Source: Sphingosinicella sp. (GTDB taxonomy: Bacteria > Pseudomonadota > Alphaproteobacteria > Sphingomonadales > Sphingomonadaceae). From it: a DNA stretch of 64,000 nucleotides. The notes beneath the pieces were generated by a model, which had not been told where the DNA came from, made no database searches, and saw only the letters and a program-made list of their open reading frames with translations. Location of the stretch: NCBI RefSeq assembly GCF_013911755.1, contig NZ_JACESP010000002.1, positions 186,001-250,000 on the forward strand, written 5' to 3'. Below are positions 14,088 to 29,325 of this stretch, piece by piece (the stretch's first letter is position 1; every line of letters starts with the position of its first letter). The translations under genes and the position numbers were made by a program.

Positions 14088-14119
14088 ACCGCCAACGAAA
14101 ACGGAAGGGTGAGCGAGCC

Positions 14120-15406
14120 ATGAGCAACACGACTGCGAAGCTGGATCTGGGCGGCAAGGCCAGCGATTACCCGGTGCTTTCGGGCTCCGTTGGTCCGGAC
14201 GTCGTCGATATCCGCAAGCTTTATGGCAACACCGGCGCGTTCACCTACGACCCCGGCTTCACGTCCACGGCCTCGTGCGAATCGAAGATCACCTACATCG
14301 ACGGCGACCAGGGCGTGCTGCTGCACCGCGGCTACCCGATCGACCAGCTCGCGGAAAAGTCGAGCTTCATGGAGGTCGCGTACCTGCTGATGCGCGGCGA
14401 GCTGCCGAACCCGAACGAGTATGACGAGTTCGTGCGCACGATCACGCGGCACACGATGATCCACGAACAGCTGGCGATGTTCTATCGCGGCTTCCGGCGC
14501 GACGCGCACCCGATGGCGATCATGTGCGGCGTCGTCGGCGCGCTTTCGGCGTTTTATCACGACTCGACCGACATCAACGATCCCGTCCAGCGCCGGATCG
14601 CCAGCCACCGCCTGATCGCCAAGATGCCGACCATTGCGGCGATGGCGTACAAATATTCAGTCGGCCAGCCGTTCCTCTACCCGGACAACAGCCTCTCCTA
14701 CACGGGCAACTTCCTGCGCATGACCTTCGGCGTGCCGGCGGAAACCTATGAGGTCGACCCCGTGATCGAGAAGGCGATGGACAAGATTTTCATCCTCCAC
14801 GCCGACCACGAGCAGAACGCCTCGACCTCGACCGTGCGCCTTGCCGGTTCGTCGGGCGCCAACCCGTTCGCGTGCATCGCAGCGGGTATTGCCTGCCTGT
14901 GGGGCCCGGCGCATGGCGGCGCCAACGAGGCCGCGCTCGAAATGCTGCGCGAGATCGGCACGCCCGACAAGATCCCGGAATACATCAAGCGCGCCAAGGA
15001 CAAGGATGACCCCTTCCGCCTGATGGGCTTCGGCCACCGCGTCTACAAGAACTACGACCCGCGCGCGAAGGTGATGCAGAAGACGGCGAACGAAGTTCTC
15101 GCCAAGCTGGGTGTCACCGATCCGGTGTTCGACGTGGCGCGCGAGCTGGAGCACATCGCGCTCAACGACGAATATTTCATCGAGAAGAAGCTCTACCCGA
15201 ACGTCGACTTCTACTCGGGCGTCATCCTCTCGGCGATCGGCTTCCCGACCTCGATGTTCACCGTGCTCTTCGCACTCGCCCGTACCGTCGGCTGGGTAGC
15301 GCAGTGGAACGAGATGATCGAAGACCCGGCACAGAAGATCGGCCGCCCGCGCCAGCTCTACACGGGCGCGACGGCACGTGATTACGTGGAGATCACGAGC
15401 CGCTGA
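14120..15406 (+). CDS. gltA: Citrate synthase (type I/hexameric family)
   Basis: Condenses acetyl-CoA and oxaloacetate in the TCA cycle. The 428-residue protein has [13 protein letters not shown], the active-site [30 protein letters not shown] carrying the second catalytic His, and the catalytic Asp within [16 protein letters not shown]. Length and the AKLDLGG N-terminus fit the Gram-negative NADH-sensitive class. GGAAGGGTGAG precedes the ATG. An intrinsic terminator follows. Confidence 0.97.
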
Positions 15407-15431
15407 GCCGAAGGCTTCGCGCAGGAAACGG

Positions 15432-15460
15432 ACGGGCGCCTTCGGGCGCCCGTTTTCGTT
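15432..15460 (+). terminator. Intrinsic terminator of gltA
   Basis: ACGGGCGCC (15432-15440), a TTCG tetraloop, then GGCGCCCGT (15445-15453) form a perfect 9-bp stem followed by TTTCGTT. It lies 26 bases after the gltA stop and just before the convergent gene's stop. Confidence 0.9.
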
Positions 15461-15466
15461 GGCAGG

Positions 15467-16240
15467 TCAGCGCATCGCGGCGCGGGCGTCGAGCATCGGC
15501 TGCTGGGGCACGGTGATGCCGCCGCTCCACGGTCTGTCGAGGTCGAGGATCAGCAGCAGCGCGAGCGTGAGGAGCGCGAACAGGATCGTGGTGACGACGC
15601 GGTGACGACGCCCGGAACCGCCGAGCACATAGCCGACGATCCCTGCGGACATCAGCGCATAGAGGATCAGCACCTCGACCACGCGGCCTGGAATCCGCGC
15701 CGCGCGCTCTGCCTTGCGGGCGCTTGCTGCGTCGAACATCTCGTTGGTGGCGGTGATGATCGTGCTTGCAATGGGCGGCGGCGTATCGCGGATGGCGTTC
15801 CGCATATCTGCCCAGAGCGCGGCCTGCACCCTCTCCGTCTCCGCTTCGACGGCTGCCGCGTGACCGTTCCCATTCGGCAGTTTCAGCCGCACATCCGTAT
15901 AGCGCGCGACGGCGGCTTGCAGAGCAGGACCGGTCTCGACGCCCGCAAGCCCGGCACGGAGCCAGGCGGTGCCGATGGCGTTGGCTTCGGTCACCACCAT
16001 CGCGCGGCGCGTATCATAGCGATTGAGCGCCAGCGAAAAGGTGAACGCGATCAGCAGCCCGAGCAGCGCGAGAGCGGCGGAAAGCAAGTATCCCTCCCGC
16101 TCCCCTTCCCCGTCGCGTTCGCCGCGTGCGCGCTGGCGAAGCGAGGCGCCGAGCCATGCGAGCGCGGACATGGCGGCGAAGAAAACGAGACCGAGGAGCC
16201 AGAGATTTGCCGATACGAAGGCCGTGTCGATGAGGCCCAT
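15467..16240 (-). CDS. DUF4239 (bestrophin-like) membrane protein
   Basis: No experimental function is known to me for the family. The 257-residue protein has two N-terminal helices (about 10-30 and 50-72, the second ending in the conserved LALNRYDTRRAMVVTEANAIGTAWLR), a soluble middle, and two C-terminal helices (about 190-235). It closes with DLDRPWSGGITVPQQPM, the DUF4239 signature. The 12-base gap to the histidine kinase upstream suggests one transcript DUF2336 / kinase / DUF4239. A channel-like role is only suggested by the bestrophin-like fold label. Confidence 0.8.
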   Translation of the reverse strand: MGLIDTAFVSANLWLLGLVFFAAMSALAWLGASLRQRARGERDGEGEREGYLLSAALALLGLLIAFTFSLALNRYDTRRAMVVTEANAIGTAWLRAGLAGVETGPALQAAVARYTDVRLKLPNGNGHAAAVEAETERVQAALWADMRNAIRDTPPPIASTIITATNEMFDAASARKAERAARIPGRVVEVLILYALMSAGIVGYVLGGSGRRHRVVTTILFALLTLALLLILDLDRPWSGGITVPQQPMLDARAAMR

Positions 16241-16252
16241 ACGTGCAGCGCG

Positions 16253-17713
16253 TCAGCCCGCCGCCGGAAGTGTGAGCGTGAAGCGCGCGCCCATGTCCTT
16301 GTGGCTTTCGAGCGTGAGGCCACCATCCATGAGCTCGGCAAGGCGCCGGGAGATGTGGAGGCCAAGGCCCGTGCCCTCGCCGCTCGCCACATAGGGCGGC
16401 TTCGGCAGCTGCTCGAACTTTTCGAACACGCGGGCCTGGTCTTCGGGCGCGATGCCGGGGCCGGAATCCCAGACCGTGACGGCGACATGGCCGGGCAGCG
16501 TCGTCGCCGGCTCGGCGCCGACAAAACCGCCTTCGGGCGTGAACTTGACGGCATTGGTGAGCAGGTTGACGAGAATCTGCAGCGTGCGGCGGCGATCACC
16601 CCGGGCCCGCATCGGCGCATCGAGCGCGACTGCCTTGATGTCGATGCTCCGCGCCGACGCCTTCATCTGGACCATCGCACGCGCCTGTTCGACGAGCTTG
16701 GCAAGGTCGAAATCCTCGGTTTCGAGATCGATCTCGCCCGAATCGAGGCTGGAGATGTCGAGCAGATCCTGAATGAGGCCGAGTAGATGACGCCCCGCGT
16801 TGGCGATATCGCCCGCATATTCGACGTACTGCGCCTTCAGGGGGCCATGGACTTCGTGGTTCATTGCCTCGGCGAAACCGATGATGGCATTGAGCGGCGT
16901 GCGGAGCTCGTGGCTCATCGACGAGAGGAAATTGGCCTTGGCGGTGCGCCCAAGCTCAGAGCGCATCCGCTCGATGAGTCGCGCGCTGTCCGGCACCACC
17001 GCCGCGACGCCGCGATAGCCGCAGCCACCGTCCTTCGTGGGCACCGCGACCCCCGCCAGACGGTAAAGCCGCGTGGCGCCGCCCTGAGTGGTGACGGACA
17101 TCAGCTGATCGCGGAAGCTGGAACCGCGCGCCTGCGCGGATTCATAGGGCACTTCACCGTTCTCGCCGCGCAGAAGCGTGCCGATGGCGGTGAGTGGCCG
17201 ACCGAGAAGCGCGCCCGCGGGCTGACCGACCAAAAGCTCGAGCGCGCGTGAAATCGAGGTCAGCGTGCCGCGGCTGTCCGTCTCCCAATACCAGTCCGAA
17301 TTGACGCGCACGAGCTCATCGCCCTGCCAGCCGGCAAGGGTATCGCGCTCCCGCTGCTCAATCGTGATGGACGATTCCCGCATGATTCCCACGAATTTCA
17401 ACTCGTTGCGGGCCAGTGTCGACACGGGCACGAAACGAACGTGAAAATGACGTGGATTGCCCAAAAGCTCAAGAGTGAAGCTTGCGGAAACCGATTCTCC
17501 TCCCGGTGCCAGCGCAGCGACCAGCTGGGCAGCAAGTTCGCCGGGCGCGAGCAGGGCGGCACGTTCAAGCTCGGCGTAGGCGGCGTTGGCTTCGAGGAGC
17601 GCGCCGGTGGGCAAACATTCGAACACAGTCGCGCCCGCAAGCGCAGGGTCTGCTGCAGCAAGCGCATCGAGCGCGCTCGCATGGCCGGGGCGGATGTCGC
17701 GCGGCTCGAACAT
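16253..17713 (-). CDS. Soluble PAS-containing sensor histidine kinase
   Basis: A 486-residue kinase with no membrane helix. Residues about 20-115 and 130-245 look like two PAS-type sensor modules (WYWETDSRGTLTSIS opens the second). The phospho-acceptor is His268 in SHELRTPLNAIIGF. The ATP domain has the N box NLLTNAVKFTPEGG, G1 DSGPGIAPED and G2 GEGTGLGLHI. No receiver domain or response regulator is adjacent, so it is an orphan kinase. It begins five bases after the DUF2336 gene stop and is probably translated from the same mRNA. The signal is unknown. Confidence 0.92.
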   Translation of the reverse strand: MFEPRDIRPGHASALDALAAADPALAGATVFECLPTGALLEANAAYAELERAALLAPGELAAQLVAALAPGGESVSASFTLELLGNPRHFHVRFVPVSTLARNELKFVGIMRESSITIEQRERDTLAGWQGDELVRVNSDWYWETDSRGTLTSISRALELLVGQPAGALLGRPLTAIGTLLRGENGEVPYESAQARGSSFRDQLMSVTTQGGATRLYRLAGVAVPTKDGGCGYRGVAAVVPDSARLIERMRSELGRTAKANFLSSMSHELRTPLNAIIGFAEAMNHEVHGPLKAQYVEYAGDIANAGRHLLGLIQDLLDISSLDSGEIDLETEDFDLAKLVEQARAMVQMKASARSIDIKAVALDAPMRARGDRRRTLQILVNLLTNAVKFTPEGGFVGAEPATTLPGHVAVTVWDSGPGIAPEDQARVFEKFEQLPKPPYVASGEGTGLGLHISRRLAELMDGGLTLESHKDMGARFTLTLPAAG

Positions 17714-17718
17714 GGCCG

Positions 17719-18861
17719 CTACGCGTCGCCCTCATTCAGATCGTCGATCGCCTGCCGAAGCCCGGCATCGAGCTGCCAGTAGTGCAGCACGCGGCGCGCG
17801 GCGGCGACATCGAGGTCGTCGTGAAGACGGAGGATTTCCGCGACCGCAGAGGGCGGACGCGCGCTCGCCGCATTGCCAAGTTCGCCGAGCACGATCACGA
17901 GTGACGCCGTGGCGTCGCGGCTGACGTCAACCGCCTTCGCCAGCACAATGAAGCTTTCGCTCGCCGGATCGGTGACGATCCGCCACACGGTGTTGAAAGC
18001 GATCTTCGCGCGGGCGGCGAACGCCGCGGTGAACAGGCTAAGTCGCCCCTGGCGCAGCGTGCGAAGCAGGAAGCCATCCGTCAGCTCGCCGAGTTCATTG
18101 AGGCGCCGCGCGAGCTGGAGCGCGCGGGACTGCACGGACTGCGTGTCGTCGTATTCCACCATCGCGCGCTTTGCCGCGCGTTCGAGCATCGGATCGAGCA
18201 CGGCCTGATCGATGACGAAATTCTTGAGGATGTGGCGGCGGAGCGCGGCGGCCACCCACCAGTAAACCTCTTGCGCGAGATCGGCGGGAAGATCGTTCTG
18301 CGTGAGGAGCGGCTGCTGGAACTGGCCGTTGCGCTTGCTCTCCGCGACCAGAAGCTCCATCGCGCGGCGCGACAGCACGGGGTCTTCGGTGCGGATCAGG
18401 CCTTCGAGGACGTCGTCCTCGCTGCCCTTGAGGCCACGCTCGGCCAACGCCTCGGTGAGCGGCGGCGAGACGGTTTCGCGCAACGCGATCGCCATGCGAT
18501 GTTCTTCCGCGCACTGGATGACGATGTCCATCAGCGCGGGATTGCGAACCACACTGCTGCGTTCAAGGATCGGACGTGCCACCTCGATGCTGTCGCTCGC
18601 GAGCCGGGCTTCGAGATCGGGCTGCGATGCGGGCGAACGCCCGAGCGCTTCGACGAGGTGTCGGCGCACCTCCATTTCGACCGTGCCGAGCAGACGCCCG
18701 AGCACATCTGTCATCAGCGCGCGTTGCTGATCGGTGAGCCGCTGCGCCGCGGGCAGGAACAGGTCCGTTATCGCGTGCGCCAACTGCGCCCGCGCCGCGC
18801 CGGAACGGCCAGCAGCGAGACCCAACAGCGCCTGAACGTCGATTGGCCGATCCAGCGGCAA
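17719..18861 (-). CDS. DUF2336 domain protein
   Basis: A 380-residue soluble, Leu/Ala-rich, helical-repeat-like protein. The DUF2336 region spans about residues 10-300, with repeated VEALGRSPASQPD / VRNPALMDIVIQ-type helices resembling HEAT repeats, and a distinctive Trp pair in QEVYWWVAAALRRHIL. Family members are restricted mostly to alphaproteobacteria and often sit beside two-component genes; function is unknown. Here it is first in a likely three-gene unit with the orphan histidine kinase and the DUF4239 protein, so a regulatory or scaffold role for the kinase is a reasonable guess. Confidence 0.82.
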   Translation of the reverse strand: MPLDRPIDVQALLGLAAGRSGAARAQLAHAITDLFLPAAQRLTDQQRALMTDVLGRLLGTVEMEVRRHLVEALGRSPASQPDLEARLASDSIEVARPILERSSVVRNPALMDIVIQCAEEHRMAIALRETVSPPLTEALAERGLKGSEDDVLEGLIRTEDPVLSRRAMELLVAESKRNGQFQQPLLTQNDLPADLAQEVYWWVAAALRRHILKNFVIDQAVLDPMLERAAKRAMVEYDDTQSVQSRALQLARRLNELGELTDGFLLRTLRQGRLSLFTAAFAARAKIAFNTVWRIVTDPASESFIVLAKAVDVSRDATASLVIVLGELGNAASARPPSAVAEILRLHDDLDVAAARRVLHYWQLDAGLRQAIDDLNEGDA

Positions 18862-18944: not shown

Positions 18945-20408
18945 CTAGAAACGCGTACGCCAACCGATCTCAATCGCGGTTTTCGCATCGCTGGTGCCGG
19001 GCGTGTTCGGCGCGTCGGTATCGTAGCGGGCCTCGAGGCTGATATCGCCGAACGCGGTGGGGAGTTCGGTACCGACTTCGAAGGCGTTGTACGTCTCGCG
19101 ATTGAGCGAGAGGTTGTTGTTCCGAAGGTTGCTCGTCTTGTTGATGTCGACGCGGCGATAGGTGCCGTAAAAACGCCGATTCTTCGCGTCGGTGACGGAA
19201 AGACCCGCGGTCCAGAGTTCGCTGTCGCCATCGAGGCTGTGGCCGAGCGCGCGGTCGCGGTAGGTGAAGCCATCGAAGTATATGAAATTGTTATACATGC
19301 TGCCCGGATAGGTCTTACCGCCGCCGAGCTTTACCGCAAGCGTGTCGGACCATTCGCCAAGCAGCGTCCAGCTTGCGCCCTGATCGCCGATGGGGCCGGA
19401 CAGCGTGAACCCGGCCATGCGGGAGAACTGCTCGATGAGGAGGTTGTCCTCGTCCTCCGCTTCCCACTCGGTATACGCCTGCACGGCGACATTGCCGATC
19501 ATGCGCGTGTAGCTGATGTCGAAGCCGGCGATCTGATTGCCGGGCTCGTTCAAGGTGCCCGTGTTGTCGGCGTCGCCGATGCCGACGACGGCGTCGAAGA
19601 TGGTGCCGAGCCCGCACGGACGGCCGCTGCCGCAGAGTTGAAGCCCGCGATTGAGGCCGATTTCGAGGCCGGGGACGGGTTCGAACGACAGACGCATTCC
19701 GGCGATCGCCGGGTTGTTGTAGTCCGCGCGCGTTTCGGTCGCGATGCCCGCGAAAATATCGAGCCGCCACGGGCCGAACCAGCGGAGCACCGGGAAGTCG
19801 ATCGGCTCGGGCACCAGCCGCTTGATGCCGACGCGCGGGATCGGGCGGGCGTTGGTGGAGAAGAGCAGCGCGCTGTCGTGGCCCGGGCCCCACCATGTGT
19901 CGACATAGCCGCCGTAAAGCGCCCAGTTGCCGATGGGGAGTGCGAGCGTCGCGGGTTCGAAATGGAAGTCGCGGCCCTGCTGGCCTTCGCGCCAGCCGAC
20001 GCCGTAAGAGATGTAGAGCTTGCCGAGTTCGTGCTCGGCGCGGACCGTGACGTCGCCGTCCTCGCGCGCCGTATCGCCGAAATCACGGACGACCGAAGGC
20101 CGGTTCGTGGCGCGGGCGCGGACCTCGTAGCGGCTCTTCTGCCCGTCACGCTCGGAAAGGATCGTAAGGCGGCGCACGGCGGCGCCCAAGTGCGACGGCA
20201 ACGTCTGGCCCTTGGCGCGCTCAAGTCCTTCGGCGACCTGCGCCCACGGCAGCGGCCATGCGTTGACGGGGCCGCGGATCAGCCCAGCCGCCTTCAGAAG
20301 CTCGACATCGCTGCGGACCTGACGGTCGCCCGCTTCGAGCCACGGCCCGGCGGCGGCGGGCATGGCCGACAGCAGGACGGCGGCGGCCGCTATACCCAGA
20401 GACTTCAT
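18945..20408 (-). CDS. Wzi-like capsule assembly outer-membrane protein
   Basis: Predicted outer-membrane beta-barrel of 487 residues. The signal peptide MKSLGIAAAAVLLSAMPAAA ends near residue 20. A helical N-terminal part (DVELLKAAGLI, AVRRLTILSE) precedes many amphipathic strands, and the protein ends in WRTRF with the C-terminal Phe expected for BamA recognition. GYVDTWWGPGHDSALLFS is characteristic of the Wzi family, which anchors group 1 capsule in E. coli. The ATG overlaps the nucleotidyltransferase stop by ATGA, with GGGGAG upstream, so it belongs to the inositol cluster. Its substrate here is unknown; surface polysaccharide or an inositol-containing glycan are both possible. Confidence 0.82.
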   Translation of the reverse strand: MKSLGIAAAAVLLSAMPAAAGPWLEAGDRQVRSDVELLKAAGLIRGPVNAWPLPWAQVAEGLERAKGQTLPSHLGAAVRRLTILSERDGQKSRYEVRARATNRPSVVRDFGDTAREDGDVTVRAEHELGKLYISYGVGWREGQQGRDFHFEPATLALPIGNWALYGGYVDTWWGPGHDSALLFSTNARPIPRVGIKRLVPEPIDFPVLRWFGPWRLDIFAGIATETRADYNNPAIAGMRLSFEPVPGLEIGLNRGLQLCGSGRPCGLGTIFDAVVGIGDADNTGTLNEPGNQIAGFDISYTRMIGNVAVQAYTEWEAEDEDNLLIEQFSRMAGFTLSGPIGDQGASWTLLGEWSDTLAVKLGGGKTYPGSMYNNFIYFDGFTYRDRALGHSLDGDSELWTAGLSVTDAKNRRFYGTYRRVDINKTSNLRNNNLSLNRETYNAFEVGTELPTAFGDISLEARYDTDAPNTPGTSDAKTAIEIGWRTRF

Positions 20409-21115
20409 GCAGCACACTCCCCTTCCGCGCCGAGCCAGCGCTCCGCAATATCCAGCGCCCGTGCATCATCGACATCGAGCCAAGCGCAATCCCCGGTTTC
20501 GACCGCACGCGCAAGCCCGGACGCGGCGAGCGCGGCAACGCCCTGCGACAGGCTGGGTGCAGGAAGGCCGGCGAGCGCGTCAAACAGCGGTCTGCCGACG
20601 GAGAACACGCCGGTGTCGTAGCCGTTGAACGGTTCGAGATGCTTGCCGATGGCGACGATGGCATCGCCTTCGGTGCGGACGCGCGTGACGTCATCCTCGT
20701 CGATCCACGCGTGGCCGATCCGGCGATCGACGCCGAGCAGCAGTGCGCCGTCGTCGGCGGGCGCCTCCGCCACGGCGCGGTAGAGCGCGGGGTCGACGAG
20801 ATGGTCGGCCATCACCAGCAACGCGCGCGCGGTGATGAAGGGCGCAGCCGCCAGCGCGGACACGCCGTTCGGCAGCGCGGGATCGGCGACGGTGACCGTT
20901 CGAACGGCAAGCGGCAGATTCCACTCGGCAAGGGCCGCTGCGACCTCTTCCGCGCGGTGCCCGAGCACGACCGTGACGTCATCGACGCCCGCTTCGGCAA
21001 GGCGCAAAGCCGTGTGCAGCAGCAGCGGACGCCCCGCGACGACCGCAAGCGGCTTCGACGGGGCGTGACTGCGCAGCCGGCTGCCGAAACCGGCGGCAAG
21101 CACGATGGCCTGCAT
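20405..21115 (-). CDS. Sugar/inositol-phosphate nucleotidyltransferase
   Basis: A 236-residue single-domain NTP transferase. The nucleotide-binding signature LAAGFGSRL with SKPLAVVAGRPLL lies in the first 30 residues, the metal-binding Asp in MADHLVDP, and the C-terminal DVDDARALDIAE resembles CTP:inositol-1-phosphate cytidylyltransferases and LicC-type enzymes. It lies 12 bases after the inositol-phosphate synthase gene, so inositol-1-phosphate is the obvious candidate substrate, making CDP-inositol. Glycerol-, choline- or sugar-phosphate remain alternatives. It overlaps the wzi-like start by four bases. Confidence 0.78.
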   Translation of the reverse strand: MQAIVLAAGFGSRLRSHAPSKPLAVVAGRPLLLHTALRLAEAGVDDVTVVLGHRAEEVAAALAEWNLPLAVRTVTVADPALPNGVSALAAAPFITARALLVMADHLVDPALYRAVAEAPADDGALLLGVDRRIGHAWIDEDDVTRVRTEGDAIVAIGKHLEPFNGYDTGVFSVGRPLFDALAGLPAPSLSQGVAALAASGLARAVETGDCAWLDVDDARALDIAERWLGAEGECAA

Positions 21116-21127
21116 GGGCCGCTGTTC

Positions 21128-22234
21128 CTAGTGCAGCTTGCCGCCGCCGGCGATGAACGCCTCCAGCGCGGCGAAGGCGATGTCGTCGGTCGTCTGGCGC
21201 GGGGGGTGCTTGCAGAAATAGCTGGCAGCCGCATCGATCGGCCCGGCGAGGCCGCGATCGAGCGCGAGCTTCGCACAGCGGATCATGTCGATGGCGACGC
21301 CCGCCGAATTGGGGCTGTCTTCCACCGACAGGCGCAGCTCGAGGTTCATCGGAACGCCGCCGAAGAGCTGACCTTCCATGCGCAAGAAACAGACCTTGTT
21401 GTCGTTCTGCCACGCCACATAGTCCGACGGGCCGACGTGGATGTTCTCGTCATCCATGCGGCGCGCGGCGACCGACTGTACCGCTTCGGTCTTCGACTCC
21501 TTCTTGGAGGCGAGCCGCGTGCGGTTCAGCATGTTCAGGAAGTCCGTGTTGCCGCCAGTGTTGAGCTGGTAGGTCCGGTCGAGCTTCACGCCGCGCTTGG
21601 CGAACAGATCGGTGAGCACGCGGTGGACGATCGTGGCGCCGAGCTGCGCCTTGATGTCGTCGCCGATGATGGGAAGACCCGCATCCGCGAAGCGCTTCGC
21701 CCAGACGGGATCGCTGGCGATGAACACCGGGATGTTGTTGACGAAGGCGACGCCGGCTTCGAGCGCGCATTCGGCATAGAACTCGGTGGCCTTCTGGCTG
21801 CCGACGGGGAGATAGTTCATCAGAACGTCGGCGCGGGTTTCGCGCAGCACGCGCACGACCTCGTCCTTGTCCGCCTCCGCCTCGTCCGCCACGAGGAAGG
21901 TGCGATCATCGGGATAGTCCGCCATGTGCTCGCCGACGCCGTCGAGGAGACGGCCCATGCGGACGCGCGCGCCGGTTTCGGGAACATGATCGCAGAACAC
22001 GGCGGTGCAGTTCGGCTTCGCGAAGATCGCTTCGGCAATATCCATCCCGACCTTGCGGCGGTCGATATCCCAACCGGCAACGAAACGAATGTCCTTCGGA
22101 CGATAACCGCCGAGATCCCAGTGCAGCAGGCCGATCTGTTCGTTCGCGCCGCCGTTCTGATAATGGGCGACCCCCTGAACCAGCGAACTTGCGCAGTTGC
22201 CGATACCAACGACCGCTACTCTAACTTCATGCAT
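21128..22234 (-). CDS. ino1: Myo-inositol-1-phosphate synthase
   Basis: Converts glucose 6-phosphate to L-myo-inositol 1-phosphate using NAD. The 368-residue protein opens with the Rossmann motif VAVVGIGNCASSLVQG, contains NYLPVGSQKATEFYA, FVNNIPVFIASDP, the active-site Lys region PIIGDDIKAQLGATI, and NTGGNTDFLNM. This matches the short prokaryotic/archaeal Ino1 form rather than the 530-residue eukaryotic form. The gene is uncommon in Proteobacteria; its place between a nucleotidyltransferase and a CDP-alcohol phosphotransferase points to an inositol lipid or osmolyte. suhB (inositol monophosphatase family) is 23 kb away in this window. Confidence 0.95.
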   Translation of the reverse strand: MHEVRVAVVGIGNCASSLVQGVAHYQNGGANEQIGLLHWDLGGYRPKDIRFVAGWDIDRRKVGMDIAEAIFAKPNCTAVFCDHVPETGARVRMGRLLDGVGEHMADYPDDRTFLVADEAEADKDEVVRVLRETRADVLMNYLPVGSQKATEFYAECALEAGVAFVNNIPVFIASDPVWAKRFADAGLPIIGDDIKAQLGATIVHRVLTDLFAKRGVKLDRTYQLNTGGNTDFLNMLNRTRLASKKESKTEAVQSVAARRMDDENIHVGPSDYVAWQNDNKVCFLRMEGQLFGGVPMNLELRLSVEDSPNSAGVAIDMIRCAKLALDRGLAGPIDAAASYFCKHPPRQTTDDIAFAALEAFIAGGGKLH

Positions 22235-22276
22235 GGGAAAGATCCTGAGACGCGTCTACTGCGCGGTTGAACACGA

Positions 22277-23635
22277 TCACTTAGCGTTGCCAGCAGAATC
22301 GGGCAAGAATGTGTAGGCCGTCTTTGCAAAGTTCGCGGCGATTTGATCGCTGTTTTCGCTGCCATACTCCTGAAGCCGGACAAAGAAGCGCGCCTGCATG
22401 ACGAAAAAGGTGATCGCGCTGTACGCTGCGATCATCGCAAAGCCCGCATACCAGGCGCCAAACGCCGCGAACGGCAAAAGGCTCCAGAAGAACGTATTGC
22501 GGCGCCCGGCGACGAGACGGAACCGCCGTTCGAACGCGCCGGCGTCGTCGATCTGCTTGCCCGTGAAGCGCCGGAAGAACTCGCCCTGCACGGCTTCCGC
22601 GAGCGCGAAGCCCACGCAGATCGCGGCGAGCGGCCATGCGCCGCCATGCCCGATCGAATTGAAATAATAAGCGAGTGCCGCGAACCAGCCGTACTCGACG
22701 ACCTTGTCCGCGACATGTTCGAGGTCGCCCCATTTCGAGAACTCGACGCGCGTGCGCGCAAGCTTGCCGTCCACGCCGTCGAGCGGCCCGATGATGAGCG
22801 CGAGGATGAGGCCGATCCACAAATGGCCGAGCGCGAACGCCGCCATCGCCGCGAGGCCAAGCAGGAACACGCCCACCGAAATCATGTTGGGCGTAAGCGG
22901 GGTCGGGAGCAGCAGGCGCGTGAGCAGGTTTTCGATCGGCGGGTGAATGAAGCGCGCGGGCCAATCGAGGATGCCCTTCTGCGCGGCGGCGAGTGCGTCG
23001 TTGGTCGCTGCATCGGCGGACGCGGCATCGACGGCGCGGCGCCATTGCAGCGGCACCTCGCGCCGCCGCGACGGACAATAAGCGGGGATACGCCCGACCT
23101 CTACTGGCGTATGCGGCCCCTCCCCCAGCGCCGAGCGCACCAGCGTCGCCTGCATGTCCCAGTCGCCGAGGCGGCCCGCGACGCTGCGAACGAGGCGCCC
23201 CGGAAAGCGCGCGAGCCCCGCGAAGAAGCGGTCCGACGCGATTCGCTCCGCGGCGATCGGTCGTTCGTCCGCCTCCATCCAGACGCCGAGCACGACATCT
23301 CCGGTCGCCCACGCGACGGCAGCGATCGCACGCTCATCGGCGACGAGGCCTTCATCGAGTGAGAGCACACTGTCTTCCTCGCGGATCGCGGCACGAACGC
23401 CGTCGCCGCCGTGAACGACCTCGACCCCCGGCGTCGCACGCCGTGCGCGGTCGAGCGCGGCAGCGAGGCGCGGCGTCACGCGCTCCACCATGACGACGAC
23501 GCGCTCCGCACCCGCGCGGCGGCACTGGCGGATCTGACGATCCACCGAGGCGATTCCCGTGATGCCGAGCGCGGCCAGCGGTTCGTCCGCTCCGGCGCTG
23601 AAATGATGGGCATAGAGCAGCGCCACAAGCGCCAT
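22277..23635 (-). CDS. Nucleotidyltransferase-like / CDP-alcohol phosphotransferase fusion
   Basis: A 452-residue two-part protein. Residues 1 to about 200 resemble a MobA/IPCT-like nucleotidyltransferase (GITGIASVDRQIRQCRRAG, then AERVVVMVE) but lack the LAAGxGxRL signature; the expected KPL is EPL, so this half is probably catalytically dead. Residues about 270-445 form a membrane CDP-alcohol phosphotransferase with several helices, starting after PTPLTPNMISV. Its motif reads DGVDGKLAR, eight residues, G, then His at +4 and Lys at +8 where the family has two Asp. The layout copies the archaeal bifunctional IPCT/DIPPS enzyme. ATG 23633-23635 is chosen for GGAG upstream; the frame is open 34 codons further. 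Confidence 0.82.
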   Translation of the reverse strand: MALVALLYAHHFSAGADEPLAALGITGIASVDRQIRQCRRAGAERVVVMVERVTPRLAAALDRARRATPGVEVVHGGDGVRAAIREEDSVLSLDEGLVADERAIAAVAWATGDVVLGVWMEADERPIAAERIASDRFFAGLARFPGRLVRSVAGRLGDWDMQATLVRSALGEGPHTPVEVGRIPAYCPSRRREVPLQWRRAVDAASADAATNDALAAAQKGILDWPARFIHPPIENLLTRLLLPTPLTPNMISVGVFLLGLAAMAAFALGHLWIGLILALIIGPLDGVDGKLARTRVEFSKWGDLEHVADKVVEYGWFAALAYYFNSIGHGGAWPLAAICVGFALAEAVQGEFFRRFTGKQIDDAGAFERRFRLVAGRRNTFFWSLLPFAAFGAWYAGFAMIAAYSAITFFVMQARFFVRLQEYGSENSDQIAANFAKTAYTFLPDSAGNAK

Positions 23636-23724
23636 CGACGTCTCCGGGTCTGAATGGATGGCGGACCATAAGGGCAAGCAAGTGGACTTGCCAACACTCC
23701 CCGGAGCAGCGCACATCGCACACG

Positions 23725-24549
23725 ATGCATTCCACAATCGACACGGCAGACGGCGGGCGCCCGCGCGGCATAGAGGAACCGCTGAACATCGCGGTCATTC
23801 ACCCGGTGTCGCGGGCACTGCTGCCGATTGCGGTGAAGCTTCATATTCCGCCCAACGCCATTTCGATCGCCGGAATCGGCTTCGGCATCGTCGCCGCGTG
23901 GGCTTACTTCCAGTATGAGAAGCCGGTGATGGCGCTCGCCGGATTCGCGGCGATGCTTGCCTGGCACGTCTTCGACGGCCTCGACGGCATGACGGCGCGC
24001 GCGACGGGACGCAGCAGCGATTTCGGGCGGTTCCTGGATGGCTTCTGCGACTACAGCGTGTTCATCCTCGTCTATCTGAGCCTGGCGTTCAGCGCCGCCG
24101 AACATGTGGGAATCGCGGTCAGCCTGTCGCTCGCGGTCGCTGCGGGCGCCGCGCATGTCGTGCAGGCGGCGTGGTACGAGCTTCAACGCGAAGTGTTCAT
24201 CCGGCGCAGCGCGGGCCAGCCGGGCATTGCGCCGCGCGAGGCCGTGGGCGGCTTCCTCGAAGTCGGCTACAACGCGCTTCAGGCGAAGCTGATGCCGGGG
24301 GCGCATGCGCTCGATGCCGCGCTCGGCGCCGATCCGGCGCTGCGCGCGCGCTATATCGAAAGGCTTCGACCTGTGCTCGCGGGCGCCACGATCCTGGGCG
24401 CGAGCGGACGCACGTCCGCGATTTTCGTCGCGTGCCTGGCCGGAAGCCCGCTCTGGTACTGGCTTTGGGAAATCCTCGGCCTCAGCCTCGCAGCGGTTCT
24501 GATCGAACGCGTGCGCCGGCAACGTGAAGCCACGTTTCTAGAATCTTGA
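23725..24549 (+). CDS. CDP-alcohol phosphatidyltransferase
   Basis: A 274-residue integral membrane enzyme that should transfer a phospho-alcohol from a CDP-alcohol to a hydroxyl acceptor, releasing CMP. The motif DGLDGMTARATGRSSDFGRF continues LDGFCD and is complete, with all four Asp of D-x2-DG-x2-AR-x8-G-x3-D-x3-D. About six hydrophobic helices follow. It is divergent from the fusion gene across 89 bases, so both promoters share that gap. A CDP-inositol:lipid or phosphatidylinositol-phosphate synthase role is inferred from ino1 nearby. A hydrophilic insert at about residues 150-215 is long for the family. Confidence 0.85.
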   Translation: MHSTIDTADGGRPRGIEEPLNIAVIHPVSRALLPIAVKLHIPPNAISIAGIGFGIVAAWAYFQYEKPVMALAGFAAMLAWHVFDGLDGMTARATGRSSDFGRFLDGFCDYSVFILVYLSLAFSAAEHVGIAVSLSLAVAAGAAHVVQAAWYELQREVFIRRSAGQPGIAPREAVGGFLEVGYNALQAKLMPGAHALDAALGADPALRARYIERLRPVLAGATILGASGRTSAIFVACLAGSPLWYWLWEILGLSLAAVLIERVRRQREATFLES

Positions 24550-24846
24550 GAAACGCAGGATTTCGGAGTCGAGACGCGCAAGGAGTGCGCTGTCGCCAGG
24601 GGCCGACAGCTCGGCAAGCAGCGCGATCGCGCCGATGGCCTCCGCGCCGATAGACTGCGCCGCGCCTTTCAGGCGGTGCGCGGCGGCTTTCCAGCCCGCC
24701 CGATCCTTCGCGGCGCGCAGGTCGGCGGCGTAGGCGGGCAAATTTTCGCGGAATTCCGACATCAGATCGTCGAACAACGCCGTATCCCCGCCCGTGATTT
24801 CGAGCAGGCGGTGCGGCAGGAAAGCGGGGGCGGATTCGGGGTTCAT
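24538..24846 (-). CDS. Stand-alone Hpt phosphotransfer protein
   Basis: A 102-residue helical protein with the Hpt signature AAHRLKGAAQSIGAEAIG; the His in HRLKGAA is the phospho-acceptor. The N-terminus (PHRLLEITGGDTALFDDLMSEF) matches helix A/B of Hpt domains. It relays phosphate between a hybrid kinase and a response regulator, neither of which is adjacent. ATG 24844-24846 is chosen because the upstream ten codons look non-coding. Its 3' end overlaps the convergent phosphotransferase gene by 12 bases. Confidence 0.85.
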   Translation of the reverse strand: MNPESAPAFLPHRLLEITGGDTALFDDLMSEFRENLPAYAADLRAAKDRAGWKAAAHRLKGAAQSIGAEAIGAIALLAELSAPGDSALLARLDSEILRFSRF

Positions 24847-24979
24847 GCGCCCATGTTCGACGACGAGTGTTAACAAACTGTCGACAAATGCCGATTGCCG
24901 GGCTGTCCTGTCCGCACGGGCGATGATAGACAGGTGCGCAAGGGGTTTTCACACACAGGTTTCGCGGGGGTCGTGCACC

Positions 24980-27331
24980 ATGAGTCCAGTCGGTCGGCGG
25001 TCGTTTCCGGAAAAGCTTCCGCCGGACTACGCATGGCAGCAGAACGCCGTGCCCGACGCCGCGCCGGATACGTCAGCGCCGATGAAGCGCCTGCGCCAGA
25101 TGGATGACGAGGCCATAGATGAGGCCGTGCCGACATTTTCGAGCCGCGTGCTGCTGTTCGCCTCGCTGGCCTCGCTCGCCTGGCTGGCGCTTGCCGCCGC
25201 CGTCGTCTGGCTGATCGCCGGTTCGGCGGGTGTTGGCGCGCTGACGCTGACCGAATGGGCGGGCGTCGCTGGCGGTGTCGCGGCGCCGCTTTCGGCGATC
25301 TGGCTGATCGCGCTCGTCGCCGCGCGCGTCTGGCCGGGGCAACAGCGCGAAATGCTCGCGCGAATCGAAGCCGCCGAAGAACGCTTCGCGCTGACGGCGC
25401 GCGAAACGCGCACGCAGCTTGAAAGCATCGATTCGGTGCTGGCGGCCGTGACCCTGCGCGTCGAAGGTCTGCGCAAGGTGTTCGCCGACGAGGTTGAAGG
25501 CTTCGTCAGCGCCACCGACGCCGCCGTTCACCGCACGCGCACGCTTGCGGGGACGCTCGCCGAAGACCGTGCCGCGATCGACGCCAGTTCTGCAGCGCTC
25601 GCGGAGAGCAGCGACAAGGCGCGCGCCAGCTTCGATTCGCTTGCCAGCGCGCTGCCCGAAGCCGAAGCGCAGGTGAACCGCATCGCGGGGCTGCTCGCGA
25701 CGAGCGCCACCGATGCACGCACGCAGCTTCAGGAAACCGAAGACCTGCTCGCCGCGGTGTGGGCACGGAGCGAGGAAGCGGGCGCGCAGGCCAAGGCCGC
25801 GACCGCAAGCCTCACCAGCGTGATTTCCGCCATCGCCACCTCCGCCGGCGAGGCGGAAGGCCGGCTCGGCAGCTATGCCGCCACACTTGAAGCGAGCGGC
25901 GATGCCGCGCTCGCCAAAACCGGCGAGGCGCTGGAAGCGACGCGCGCCGGGGTCGAAGCACAGACCGCGGCGCTCGCTGCAGCGATCTCGCGGACCTCGC
26001 TCGATCTTGAAGACATCGGCGGCCGTGCGATCGAAACCATCGCAAACCGGATCACGGGCATCGCCGAGCACGTTTCCGAACTGAGCCGCCGCATCGCCGA
26101 GCAGGACGCAGGCAGCCGCGGTTTCCTCGACACGGTCGAGCGCGGTTTCAGCGTGCTCGACGCCAAGCTCGGCAATGCCGCGAATTCGAGCGAGAGCGTG
26201 CTTGCCAGCCTCTCGGCGCGGATCGGGCAGGTGCGCGGTGAGATCGATTCGCTCTCCACGCCGCTCGGCGCCACGCGCGGCGCGGCGAAAGAGATCGGCG
26301 ATTCGCTCGCCGCCGTGCGCGAAGCGACAGAACAGGCGCTCGCCTCTTTGTCTGATGGCGTTCCCGCCAGCGCCGAAAAGGGTCTCGGTGCGATCGACGC
26401 TCTGCGCGGTTCGGTGGCGAACCTCTCGCAGGATGTCGACCGGGTGGCGGAACGCGCCGCCGCCATCAACATGCCGATCGCCGCGGGACGCAAGGCGATC
26501 GACGAACTGCTCGATGGGCTGGAAGACCAGCGCGAAAGCCTCGAAGCCGTGGTGGCCAAGGTGCGCGGCGAGATCGAGACCGCGCAGGGCATCCTGTCGG
26601 GCGTCGAACGCTCGGCGGAAAGCACCGCGCTCAGCGCGACGACGCAGTTGATCGACGCGCTCGGGCGCGTGCGTGAGGTCGCGGCGCAGACGGCCGGAAC
26701 GGTGAAAACGGCGCTCGAAGCGGTCGTCGAGGAGGCGCGCGAGGCGCTGACCAAGGCATCGCGCGAGGCTGTGCGCCAGAGCGCGATCGAGCCGGTGGAA
26801 ACGCAGATCAAAGCGCTGGAAGCGGCGGGCCAGCGCAGCGCCGACGCCGCGCAGGCCGCCGCCGAGCGACTGTCGCGCCAGCTCGTCTCCGTCGCCGAGA
26901 CGGCGGCCGCGATCGAAACGCGCGTGAACGAGGCGGACTCGCACCTCGACGCGGCGCTTCGGAAGGACATCGGCCGCCAGTCCGAACTGCTCGTCGAAGC
27001 GCTCAACAGCGCCTCGATCGATATCGCCAAGGGGCTTTCGGCGGAGGTCACCGAGACGGCGTGGAAGCAGTATCTGGCGGGCGAACGCGGTGTTTTCTCA
27101 CGCCGCGCCGTGCAGCTCCTCACGAACCGCGACGCCAAGGAAGTCACGCGCCGCTACAGCGAAGACGCCGAGTTCCGCGATGGCGTGCGCCGCTATATCC
27201 ACGATTTCGAGGCGATGCTCCGTCGCTTCAACGCGGACCGCGACGGCAACGCGCTTTCGATGACGCTGCTGTCGTCCGACCTTGGCAAACTCTACGTGGC
27301 GCTGGCGCAGGCGACGGAGCGGCTGCGCTGA
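24980..27331 (+). CDS. Membrane-anchored long coiled-coil protein
   Basis: I cannot assign a function. The 783-residue protein has a short cytoplasmic N-terminus, two membrane helices at about residues 53-80 and 90-113, then roughly 550 residues of Ala/Glu/Arg-rich helix with heptad-like spacing and repeated short phrases (ASLTSVISAIATSAGEAE, AIETRVNEADSHL). The C-terminal 100 residues differ and look globular: WKQYLAGERGVFSRRAVQLL, then YIHDFEAMLRRFN and LSSDLGKLYVALAQA. Homologues in alphaproteobacteria are often labelled ATPase or kinesin-like without an ATP motif; I see no Walker A. ATG 24980 gives a sensible N-terminus; the open frame upstream overlaps the Hpt gene. Confidence 0.8.
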   Translation: MSPVGRRSFPEKLPPDYAWQQNAVPDAAPDTSAPMKRLRQMDDEAIDEAVPTFSSRVLLFASLASLAWLALAAAVVWLIAGSAGVGALTLTEWAGVAGGVAAPLSAIWLIALVAARVWPGQQREMLARIEAAEERFALTARETRTQLESIDSVLAAVTLRVEGLRKVFADEVEGFVSATDAAVHRTRTLAGTLAEDRAAIDASSAALAESSDKARASFDSLASALPEAEAQVNRIAGLLATSATDARTQLQETEDLLAAVWARSEEAGAQAKAATASLTSVISAIATSAGEAEGRLGSYAATLEASGDAALAKTGEALEATRAGVEAQTAALAAAISRTSLDLEDIGGRAIETIANRITGIAEHVSELSRRIAEQDAGSRGFLDTVERGFSVLDAKLGNAANSSESVLASLSARIGQVRGEIDSLSTPLGATRGAAKEIGDSLAAVREATEQALASLSDGVPASAEKGLGAIDALRGSVANLSQDVDRVAERAAAINMPIAAGRKAIDELLDGLEDQRESLEAVVAKVRGEIETAQGILSGVERSAESTALSATTQLIDALGRVREVAAQTAGTVKTALEAVVEEAREALTKASREAVRQSAIEPVETQIKALEAAGQRSADAAQAAAERLSRQLVSVAETAAAIETRVNEADSHLDAALRKDIGRQSELLVEALNSASIDIAKGLSAEVTETAWKQYLAGERGVFSRRAVQLLTNRDAKEVTRRYSEDAEFRDGVRRYIHDFEAMLRRFNADRDGNALSMTLLSSDLGKLYVALAQATERLR

Positions 27332-27427
27332 GCTTCATCGTATCGGGCGGCGCAGTTGTGCGTCCCCCGACTTCGCTCGGAATGATGGACGTAAAGTAAA
27401 ACGCTGTTCGCGCACGCGGCGCCCAGC

Positions 27428-27676
27428 TTAGTTCGGCATGAAGTCGAGGTAGCCCGCTTCACCCAGCCACCAGACGCCGGCCATCAGGACGGCCGAAATG
27501 AGCGTCGTCCAGAGCAGCTTCTTGGCGAGCATCGGGTGCGCGGGCGCGCTGTCGGCCTGACCCCTTACCTTGTTCTCGCCGGCTTCGTCGGCCGTGCGGA
27601 CACCGAACGGGAGAACCGCGAACAGCGTGACCGTCCAGATCAGAAGATAGATCGCGAGTATCGACCCCCAGCCCAT
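27428..27676 (-). CDS. DUF1467 small membrane protein
   Basis: An 82-residue protein with two membrane helices (about 5-25 and 52-72) separated by a polar loop containing FGVRTADEAGE, typical of DUF1467. Function unknown. The family is frequent in alphaproteobacteria at the end of the nuo-birA-coaX-rnj series, as here. Its ATG shares one base with the ribonuclease J stop (TGATG), so it is translationally coupled. Confidence 0.85.
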   Translation of the reverse strand: MGWGSILAIYLLIWTVTLFAVLPFGVRTADEAGENKVRGQADSAPAHPMLAKKLLWTTLISAVLMAGVWWLGEAGYLDFMPN

Positions 27677-29325
27677 CAGCCCTTCACCCTTGTGATCGTT
27701 ACCTCGGTGATCGGCTTCTTGCCCGTCCAGTCCCGCGCCGTACGGCGTACGGCGACGCGGATCGCCTCGGCAAGCGCCTCTTCGGTCTTGCCACGCGTCT
27801 TCGCGACGGCTTCGCTGGCAGCGGAGACGCAGTCGTCGAGAAATTCGTCGCGGTCGTCTTCCACCGGCACGCCGTGCGACTGCACCTGCGGCGGCGCGAG
27901 CAGGCGGCCCTTGCCGTCGAGTACCACGAACACCGCGATGAGACCGTTGTGCATCATGCGGCGGCGCGCGAGCATCGTCGCGCCGTCGGCGGGCAGGATC
28001 ACGTCGCCGTCGAGGACGAGACGCCCGACGGGCTCGTGACTGATGATCTGCGGTTTGCCGGGCGCAAGGCGGATGGCGCTGCCGTTCACGGGCACGACCG
28101 CTTCCGGCACACCGACGCGGCGGGCAAGGCGCGCGTGCTCTTCCATATGGCGGCGCTCACCGTGGACGGGGATGGAGATTTGCGGCCGAATCCAGCCGTA
28201 CATCGCCTCCAGCTCCGGGATACCCGGATGCCCGGAAACGTGGACATGCGCCTGCCGGTCCGTGATGATCTCGATGCCCTTCGCGGCGAGCGCGTTCTGT
28301 ACGCGGCCGATTGAAATCTCGTTGCCGGGAATCTGCTTCGACGAATAGACGACGAGGTCGCCGCGTTCGAGCTTGATATAGGGATGGTCGCCGTCCGCGA
28401 TGCGCGAGAGTGCGGCGCGCGCCTCGCCCTGGGCGCCCGTCGAGACGATGAGCAGCTTGTCGCGCGGCACCTTCATCGCCTCTTCCTGCGAAATCGTGCG
28501 CGGAAAATCGGTGAGGTAGCCAACGCTCTTCGAGACTTCGAGGATGCGGTCGAGCGAGCGGCCGACGACGCAGATCTGGCGGCCGGTGTCCTTCGCAACC
28601 TCGCCGAGCGTGTGGAGCCGCGCGGCATTCGACGCGAAGGTGGTGACCAGCACCCTGCCCTTGTGCCCCGCGATCACCTTGTCGAGGCCTTCGCGGACGC
28701 CGGTTTCGCTGCCCGACGCTTCGGGATTGAAGACGTTGGTGGAATCGCCGACGAGCGCGAGGATGCCCTCGTCGCCGAGCGCGGTGAGTTCTTCCGCCGT
28801 GGACGGCACGCCGAGCACGGGCGCTTCATCGAGCTTCCAGTCACCGGTGTGGAATATCTTGCCGTAGGGCGTTTCGATGAGGAGCGCGTTGCCCTCGGGG
28901 ATGGAATGCGCGAGCGGCACATAGCGGCACTTGAACGGGCCAAGGTTGACCTCGCCTTCGAGCGGCACGACGTTCAGCTCGACATCGCGCTCGATGCCCT
29001 CTTCGATCAGCTTCTTGCGGATGAGGCCCGCGGTGAACGGCGTCGCGAACAGCGGCACGTCGAAATCACCGACGAGATAGGGGATCGCGCCGATGTGATC
29101 CTCGTGGCCGTGGGTGAGCACGATGCCGAGCAGATCCTTCTGCCGGTCCTCGATGAACGACAGGTCCGGGAGCACCAGTTCGATGCCCGGCAGATTCGGA
29201 TCGGCGAAGGTCATGCCCAGATCGACCATGATCCACTTGCCGTTGCAGCCGTAGAGATTGACGTTCATGCCGATCTCGCCCGAGCCGCCGAGCGGCAGGA
29301 AGATCAGTTCTTTTCCAGGCTTCAA
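27676..29325 (-). CDS. rnj: Ribonuclease J
   Basis: Endo- and 5'-3' exoribonuclease of the metallo-beta-lactamase/beta-CASP family, acting in rRNA maturation and mRNA decay. The 549 residues contain LPLGGSGEIGMN, the zinc motif HGHEDHIG, a conserved His in VPLAHSIPEGNAL, HTGDWKLDE, and beta-CASP motifs GDSTNV, TFASNAARLHT and HVSGHPG. The C-terminal domain (about 450-549) is complete. It is coupled to coaX upstream by a four-base overlap and to DUF1467 downstream by one base. Confidence 0.95.
   Translation of the reverse strand: MKPGKELIFLPLGGSGEIGMNVNLYGCNGKWIMVDLGMTFADPNLPGIELVLPDLSFIEDRQKDLLGIVLTHGHEDHIGAIPYLVGDFDVPLFATPFTAGLIRKKLIEEGIERDVELNVVPLEGEVNLGPFKCRYVPLAHSIPEGNALLIETPYGKIFHTGDWKLDEAPVLGVPSTAEELTALGDEGILALVGDSTNVFNPEASGSETGVREGLDKVIAGHKGRVLVTTFASNAARLHTLGEVAKDTGRQICVVGRSLDRILEVSKSVGYLTDFPRTISQEEAMKVPRDKLLIVSTGAQGEARAALSRIADGDHPYIKLERGDLVVYSSKQIPGNEISIGRVQNALAAKGIEIITDRQAHVHVSGHPGIPELEAMYGWIRPQISIPVHGERRHMEEHARLARRVGVPEAVVPVNGSAIRLAPGKPQIISHEPVGRLVLDGDVILPADGATMLARRRMMHNGLIAVFVVLDGKGRLLAPPQVQSHGVPVEDDRDEFLDDCVSAASEAVAKTRGKTEEALAEAIRVAVRRTARDWTGKKPITEVTITRVKG

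Follow-up and report, generated by a model that had tools for sequence, protein, structure and literature searches.

In hyperthermophiles and in Rhodothermus, the CDP-inositol pathway consists of a myo-inositol-1-phosphate synthase (Ino1), a CTP:inositol-1-phosphate cytidylyltransferase (IPCT) and a CDP-alcohol phosphotransferase. The same CDP-inositol logic has been put forward for a putative alternative inositol-lipid cluster of Bacteroides and Prevotella, which combines a myo-inositol phosphate synthase (MIPS), a nucleotidyltransferase and a CDP-alcohol phosphotransferase (Heaver et al. 2022, PMC9246714). The same authors describe bacterial synthesis of inositol lipids as relatively uncommon (PMC9246714). 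In Caulobacter, ceramide diphosphoglycerate synthesis by CpgA-D likewise relies on an alphaproteobacterial IPCT-like cytidylyltransferase, which supplies the head group of an anionic sphingolipid in CDP-activated form, but here that group is phosphoglycerate and not inositol (PMC12275187), and in AF2299 a cytidylyltransferase-like domain is fused to a CDP-alcohol phosphotransferase (PMC4634129). Here we analyse a five-gene locus in a 64,000-nucleotide stretch of a Sphingosinicella sp. genome (contig NZ_JACESP010000002.1, positions 186,001 to 250,000; ‘the window’). It encodes Ino1, an IPCT-like protein, the CDP-alcohol phosphotransferase CDP2, a degenerate nucleotidyltransferase/CDP-alcohol phosphotransferase fusion (FUS) and a Wzi-family outer-membrane barrel. 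A CDP-inositol reading of the locus is well supported by profile matches, ino1-IPCT fusions and gene co-occurrence, CDP2 rather than FUS is likely its core inositol phosphotransferase, and its product is probably an inositol phospholipid of the cell envelope.

The locus shares Ino1, IPCT and a CDP-alcohol phosphotransferase with the hyperthermophile and Rhodothermus pathway, its IPCT profile being best matched by the A. fulgidus and T. maritima enzymes, but it differs in having separate IPCT and CDP2 genes, a CDP2 that forms its own clade, a FUS without the nucleotidyltransferase loop and with a shifted motif, and an alphaproteobacterial host. Unlike the Bacteroides and Prevotella cluster, the window has FUS and a Wzi gene, and no HAD hydrolase was found among the ten genes scanned with Pfam between 15467 and 27331, i.e. 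the five locus genes and five neighbours. Among the papers listed by our search of the open-access literature, we recognised no description of this locus or of a sphingomonad CDP-inositol pathway beyond the cited papers; new here are CDP2 as the likely core enzyme, the shifted FUS motif that tracks adjacent ino1, the export contexts in relatives and the gene set of genus g16 (g and f numbers denote genera and families of our sample, L numbers its loci).

A profile of 13 IPCT relatives (A3) lies nearer to the solved IPCTs (2xme, 2.3e-33; the bifunctional 4mnd, 8e-33; T. maritima IPCT 4jd0, 1e-28) than to other nucleotidyltransferases, the next family being LicC (7.6e-14). R13, K21 and D104, which we take as equivalents of the T. 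maritima active-site residues R16, K26 and D112 (PMC12275187), are invariant in 13/13 sequences. These features alone would not fix the substrate, since Caulobacter CpgD, an IPCT-like protein whose best structural match is T. maritima IPCT and which has the same three active-site residues, makes CDP-glycerate from phosphoglycerate (PMC12275187). The genomic evidence for CDP-inositol is stronger. Ino1 and IPCT are joined in a single open reading frame (ORF) in alphaproteobacteria of other families (L085 and L086, NCBIfam), and tblastn and ORF length reveal a 643-aa ORF of the same kind in an alphaproteobacterium of another family (L090). Among named ino1 loci from a scan of genome contigs (the best 80 matches listed), 39/80 have IPCT within 6 kb of ino1 and 41/80 are without it. 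A CDP-alcohol phosphotransferase lies within 4 kb of ino1 in 34/39 loci with IPCT vs 0/41 without, in a count whose transferase queries all derive from loci that have IPCT and which includes some short contigs. That the transferase is seen near ino1 only alongside IPCT fits CDP-inositol as the donor rather than CDP-diacylglycerol. IPCT also adjoins ino1 in 20/20 regions of the order, a set chosen from 96 ino1 regions and biased to the ino1 type that accompanies IPCT, and in six metagenome-assembled genomes of gamma-, delta- and Bacteroidetes-type ino1 is next to a single ORF that combines IPCT with a canonical CDP-alcohol phosphotransferase part. The bifunctional ORF of L162 matches the bifunctional IPCT/DIPP synthase model NF041135 at 1.9e-91, below cut-off; in the window, IPCT reaches 95.8 bits and FUS 41.5 bits against a cut-off of 580 in a single protein.

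Ino1 itself belongs to the myo-inositol-1-phosphate synthases, and a mycothiol-type Ino1 equivalog was rejected with a TIGR03450 score of 460 bits, under the 638-bit cut-off. The original prediction of a route from Ino1 through CDP-inositol to a CDP-alcohol phosphotransferase is supported by these results. Its remark that inositol lipids are rarely reported in Proteobacteria does not extend to the genes, which are not rare in this order: ino1 is found at E <= 1e-40 in 96/296 sampled genomes, with IPCT at only part of the ino1 loci.

A second sphingomonad ino1 context, without IPCT, was seen in L087 (8625-12097), L088 (8328-15520) and L089 (5515-9060), at 78-80% identity to the window ino1, and probably also in L101-L107 (80-83%). 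In L088 the neighbours of ino1 encode a glycoside hydrolase-like protein (PF11790), a methyltransferase, a histidine phosphatase, epimerases and a radical SAM/B12 enzyme, and this context perhaps serves another cyclitol product.

CDP2 carries the complete class I CDP-alcohol phosphotransferase motif (D1xxD2G1xxAR...G2xxxD3xxxD4) in the form DGLDGMTAR...G...D...D, with D84, G85, D87, G88, A91, R92, G101, D105 and D109 invariant in 14/14 sequences. Its profile (A2) is best matched by AF2299 (5.1e-11), followed by CEPT1 (5.5e-7) and phosphatidylinositol phosphate (PIP) synthases (1.6e-6 and 3.3e-6); CEPT1 catalyses transfer from soluble CDP-alcohols to a lipid acceptor. The CDP2 proteins form one clade (support 100/99) that includes a copy from outside the order, encoded in an ino1-IPCT-CDP2 operon in a genome of the same class (L084). 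Many Sphingomonas, S. faeni and S. aerolata among them, have a CDP2-ino1-IPCT operon, CDP2 being the transferase seen there. S. parapaucimobilis has this operon on an 853-kb plasmid, where its annotation goes no further than CDP-alcohol phosphatidyltransferase, inositol-3-phosphate synthase and NTP transferase. A search of viral contigs for CDP2 relatives gave 47 pattern matches, none of them a relative. The Sphingomonas-type operon of CDP2, ino1 and IPCT also appears in a record named Arthrobacter sp. TPD3018 (L147), which looks mislabelled or contaminated.

FUS had been taken for an ordinary CDP-alcohol phosphotransferase, a reading that we rejected: its motif, DGVDGKLAR-x8-G-x2-E-H-x2-D-K, is one residue short, has Glu at D3 and is lost in relatives. 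The class I motif is not found in FUS, the window copy and the other 14 intact copies having G-x2-E-x3-D in its place. Most of the FUS profile can be aligned with the bifunctional IPCT/DIPP synthase 4mnd (E 1.3e-14), which confirms the nucleotidyltransferase-like N-half, and the nucleotidyltransferase catalytic loop is not conserved. FUS differs from AF2299 in that its profile matches AF2299 in the C-half only, and in being without the G-x3-D spacing. Nor is FUS simply dead, since the motif is intact in 15/18 copies with ino1 alongside vs 0/21 without (39 sequences; Fisher 3.2e-8, a value that overstates independence because the rows are related by descent). The 39 sequences are the best tier of a search for relatives and three from the scan of named loci, with L188 left out. 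The 21 copies without adjacent ino1 come from 15 genomes without ino1 at E <= 1e-40, some of them incomplete, and 6 with ino1 elsewhere; in genus g69 the motif is lost in 5/5 copies though ino1 is present elsewhere in the genome and CDP2 is adjacent.

The location is shared by 11 of the 21 motif-less copies, which adjoin gltA or RNase J/coaX. The ratio of nonsynonymous to synonymous substitution rates (dN/dS) for motif-less FUS pairs is 0.10-0.30 (13/17 pairs computable, with synonymous sites near saturation), compared with 0.04-0.17 for gltA (seven pairs) and with 0.10 and 0.29 for two intact FUS pairs. Motif-less FUS is under purifying selection: it is constrained, though less than gltA. In a FUS tree that included only six motif-less rows, and in which the row FUS_L075 was wrongly trimmed and misplaced, these six emerge at two distinct positions within the intact clade, four of them grouping with L068 and L070 (96/74; wider clade 99/94); at least two losses of the motif appear independent. 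Taken together, the pattern of intact and lost motifs, g69, the dN/dS values and locus L067 (described below) suggest that FUS catalysis tends to accompany a nearby inositol pathway, and lead us to conclude from sequence comparison that CDP2 would be able to do without a catalytic FUS and that FUS would have a second, non-catalytic role. The FUS family offers a natural experiment in which a membrane transferase becomes a retained non-catalytic protein.

Two further observations concern FUS-like genes. Motif-less FUS-like ORFs persist beside gltA or RNase J/coaX at L094:7521-8729 and at the same place in L181-L188 (the motif of L188 being unscored), L190, L193 and L194, in genomes mostly without ino1. 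A FUS paralogue with the canonical motif DTVDGKLAR...G...DHGLD lies elsewhere in the window's genome (L091:7794-8906; G000 contig C4), with no ino1 within the 17-kb stretch.

The genes that surround the set in relatives point to the cell envelope. The wzi gene, whose product belongs to the Wzi family, is in the same position in L068, L069, L070 and L116. Elsewhere in the order, families other than f1 often have a Polysacc_synt flippase or an MMPL exporter next to the set, and sometimes the two together. By blastp clustering, a capsule-export type cluster accompanies the inositol genes in 6/8 wider regions (L255-L257, L259, L260 and L262; genera g3 and g7), and one is also found at the inositol genes of Sphingomonas spermidinifaciens (L149) and Croceicoccus hydrothermalis (L150). 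The cluster of L256 encodes KpsE-like (TIGR01010, 5.8e-91) and KpsM-like (8.9e-26) proteins, a TagH/Wzt-type ATPase, a Wza-type exporter and family-4 glycosyltransferases, all below curated cut-offs; one of these glycosyltransferases is best matched by MshA, the D-inositol-3-phosphate glycosyltransferase (2.5e-29, below cut-off). In the six g3 and g7 regions CDP2 was called in five (not L259) and a Wza-type gene in five (not L262), by a simple script that missed some genes in relatives, e.g. the CDP2 of L150, which tblastn detected. FUS is replaced in the capsule-export clusters by cdpapA, a different CDP-alcohol phosphotransferase with the canonical motif. Of 37 sampled genomes with both KpsE and ino1, 11 have them within 8 kb of each other; the 11 span four genera and include 8/8 g3 genomes with ino1. 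With their KpsE-, KpsM-, ATPase- and Wza-type genes these clusters resemble ABC-transporter-dependent capsule systems (KpsMTE/Wza), but they differ in that PF05159, which we take to be the family of KpsC/KpsS, is absent in 8/9 capsule-cluster genomes, as it is in the window's genome (3.63 Mb, 48 contigs); in the ninth it is on another contig. Poly_export occurs twice elsewhere in the window's genome.

The mechanism that we propose starts from these observed gene identities, operon layout, co-occurrence, motif states and export contexts; what we infer are the substrates, the acceptor, what the barrel does and how CDP2 and FUS divide the work. IPCT would use CTP to activate inositol phosphate to CDP-inositol, from which CDP2, a membrane enzyme with an intact active site, would transfer phosphoinositol to a lipid alcohol. 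As acceptor, ceramide would be the first choice and diacylglycerol the second: a serine palmitoyltransferase is encoded in the window's genome (2x8u, E 3.8e-211), so that ceramide should be available. FUS may be an accessory second transferase that depends on nearby CDP-inositol, adding for example a second phosphoinositol, and may also have a non-catalytic role for which it is retained after loss of the pathway. The Wzi barrel would place or hold at the outer membrane either the product or a glycan that the product carries.

Such a locus could bear on a lipid already described in the order. Novosphingobium acidiphilum has a lipid with phosphatidylinositol-ceramide-like fragmentation, and no homologues of either of the clusters described in the same paper are reported in that organism (Heaver et al., PMC9246714). 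In genus g16, ino1, IPCT and CDP2 occur together in 11/11 ino1 regions (10/10 chosen regions and L071). The 16S sequence of g16, from one of three genomes searched, has its best full-length matches among plasmid records in Novosphingobium (95.4% and 95.2%), with Sphingomonas at 94.1%; one further plasmid record, outside the 15 listed, matches at no less than 99%. From these matches g16 is probably, not surely, Novosphingobium; no Novosphingobium is present among the best 80 ino1 matches listed. It is possible, judging by the Novosphingobium-like g16, that the ino1-IPCT-CDP2 locus type is the source of the inositol-type sphingolipid of N. acidiphilum. In Pseudoblastomonas, a further genus of the order, phosphatidylinositol is listed as a major polar lipid (PMC12210278). 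The locus type provides named genes to delete in sphingomonads, cultured Sphingomonas included, and makes the question of the N. acidiphilum lipid testable.

Several points weigh against the inositol phospholipid. The precedent of CpgD shows how the substrate call for IPCT could fail, and CDP2 has no close solved relative. In the 80-83% identity range of ino1, eight of the ten named loci are without IPCT, so ino1 alone is no marker of the pathway. The FUS motif is damaged in L078, L079 and L081 despite adjacent ino1, and L067 has ino1 and an intact FUS with neither IPCT nor CDP2 in its 14-kb region. The Wzi gene is present in 5/8 family-f1 loci with FUS and IPCT (the window, L068, L069, L070 and L116) and was not found in L071, L112 and L119. 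Among the ten window genes scanned with Pfam there is no flippase, MMPL protein, glycosyltransferase or ABC exporter, and a search without a positive control found no close KpsM in the window's genome. The proposed anchor for a surface polymer finds partial backing: relatives have the same genes in ABC-type capsule clusters, but among the window genes scanned only the Wzi barrel points there.

Di-inositol phosphate had been offered as an equal alternative. A soluble end product of this or another kind, like the solutes of hyperthermophiles, would be in keeping with the homology of FUS and cdpapA relatives to DIPP synthase and with the operons that have one bifunctional IPCT/CDP-alcohol-phosphotransferase ORF. 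The core transferase CDP2, however, is a separate clade and not a DIPP synthase, relatives carry exporters of lipids and polysaccharides, the FUS motif is lost in all g69 copies though ino1 is in the genome and CDP2 adjacent, and no HAD or other phosphatase is found among the ten window genes scanned, all of which make a soluble product very unlikely. That phosphoinositol is built into a surface polysaccharide or decorates one, with CDP2 and a second CDP-alcohol phosphotransferase transferring it to a lipid-linked glycan, deserves more weight, given the capsule-type clusters with family-4 glycosyltransferases (one of them MshA-like) in L149, L150 and 6/8 wider regions, the genomes with KpsE near ino1, and the Wzi-family gene of the window. 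Yet no such cluster is in view at the CDP2-ino1-IPCT genes of many Sphingomonas, in other families the set has MMPL and a flippase for partners, 26/37 genomes have KpsE away from ino1, and the CDP2 profile is related to CEPT1, a lipid-acceptor enzyme. We therefore regard a polysaccharide product as rather unlikely, even with inositol reported in the capsule of Bacteroides thetaiotaomicron (Heaver et al. 2022, PMC9246714).

Two accounts that would detach IPCT from an inositol lipid have a slighter chance still. IPCT might activate another phosphorylated alcohol, with ino1 merely a neighbour; CpgD, which keeps the IPCT active-site residues and uses phosphoglycerate (PMC12275187), is a precedent, and 41 of 80 named ino1 loci are without IPCT, but the ino1-IPCT fusions and the adjacency of the two genes in all 20 chosen regions render this highly improbable. 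A CDP-diacylglycerol route like that of the actinobacterial PIP synthase, with IPCT unrelated to lipid synthesis, draws on the weak, below cut-off matches of CDP2 and FUS to PIP synthase models, and seems to us just as improbable: a transferase is near ino1 only with IPCT, in a comparison whose queries came from IPCT loci and could miss a PIP synthase-type gene, and CDP2 has its best solved relatives in AF2299 and CEPT1, followed closely by PIP synthases.

The preferred product, an envelope phospholipid made from CDP-inositol, can be taken one step further. The capsule clusters around its genes in relatives raise the possibility that surface glycans of Gram-negative bacteria are anchored by inositol lipids. 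In a bolder and doubtful version, a surface glycan would be assembled on the sphingomonad lipid as its membrane anchor, giving Gram-negative bacteria an equivalent of lipoarabinomannan or glycosylphosphatidylinositol. Family-4 glycosyltransferases like MshA or PimA would start the chain on inositol, export would be of the KpsMTE/Wza type without a linker of 3-deoxy-D-manno-oct-2-ulosonic acid (Kdo), the Wzi barrel would hold the glycan in the window's lineage, and FUS would be a repurposed second transferase that outlives the pathway as a pseudoenzyme.

Table 1. Features of the inositol locus and its flanks (positions in the window).
Feature	Position	Strand	Evidence
wzi (Wzi-family outer-membrane barrel; last in operon)	18945-20417	-	PF14052 E 1.5e-68, 232 bits (cut-off 30.1)
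IPCT (CTP:inositol-1-phosphate cytidylyltransferase-like, 236 aa)	20405-21115	-	best PDB match A. fulgidus IPCT 2xme E 6.7e-13
ino1 (myo-inositol-1-phosphate synthase, actinobacterial type, 368 aa)	21128-22234	-	M. tuberculosis 1gr0 E 5.6e-127 over 3-363; PF01658 E 5.7e-36, 123 bits (cut-off 27)
FUS (degenerate nucleotidyltransferase/CDP-alcohol phosphotransferase fusion, 452 aa, ATG 23635 assumed)	22277-23635	-	PF01066 E 9.2e-09; 4mnd E 1.3e-14
Divergent intergenic region FUS/CDP2, 89 bp	23636-23724		
CDP2 (CDP-alcohol phosphotransferase, 274 aa)	23725-24549	+	PF01066 E 5.1e-12
Left synteny anchor: gltX, gltA, bestrophin-like, sensor kinase, DUF2336	12615-18861		first two named by eye from translation, last three by Pfam
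Right synteny anchor: Hpt, 845-aa protein without confident family, RNase J, CoaX	24538-30092		Hpt by Pfam; RNase J via homologue L070:1853-3505; CoaX by eye

The compact five-gene locus of named families anticipated by the original prediction, at 18945-24549, is borne out by the ORFs and family matches of Table 1. On the minus strand the order is FUS, ino1, IPCT, wzi, with gaps of 42 bp (FUS-ino1) and 12 bp (ino1-IPCT) and a 13-bp overlap between IPCT and wzi; CDP2 is divergent from FUS. The mechanically called FUS ORF begins at TTG 23737 and overlaps CDP2, and the ATG appears to be the likelier start. The GC profile of the window has no break, and the nearest named ino1 relatives, among the best 80 matches, are Sphingosinicella and Sphingomonas. 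As to conservation of the neighbourhood, which had been proposed as a check, the set and its flanking synteny recur in relatives: FUS, ino1, IPCT and CDP2 co-occur in five families of the order (f1, f2, f5, f7 and f8), so the locus is more than a chance assembly.

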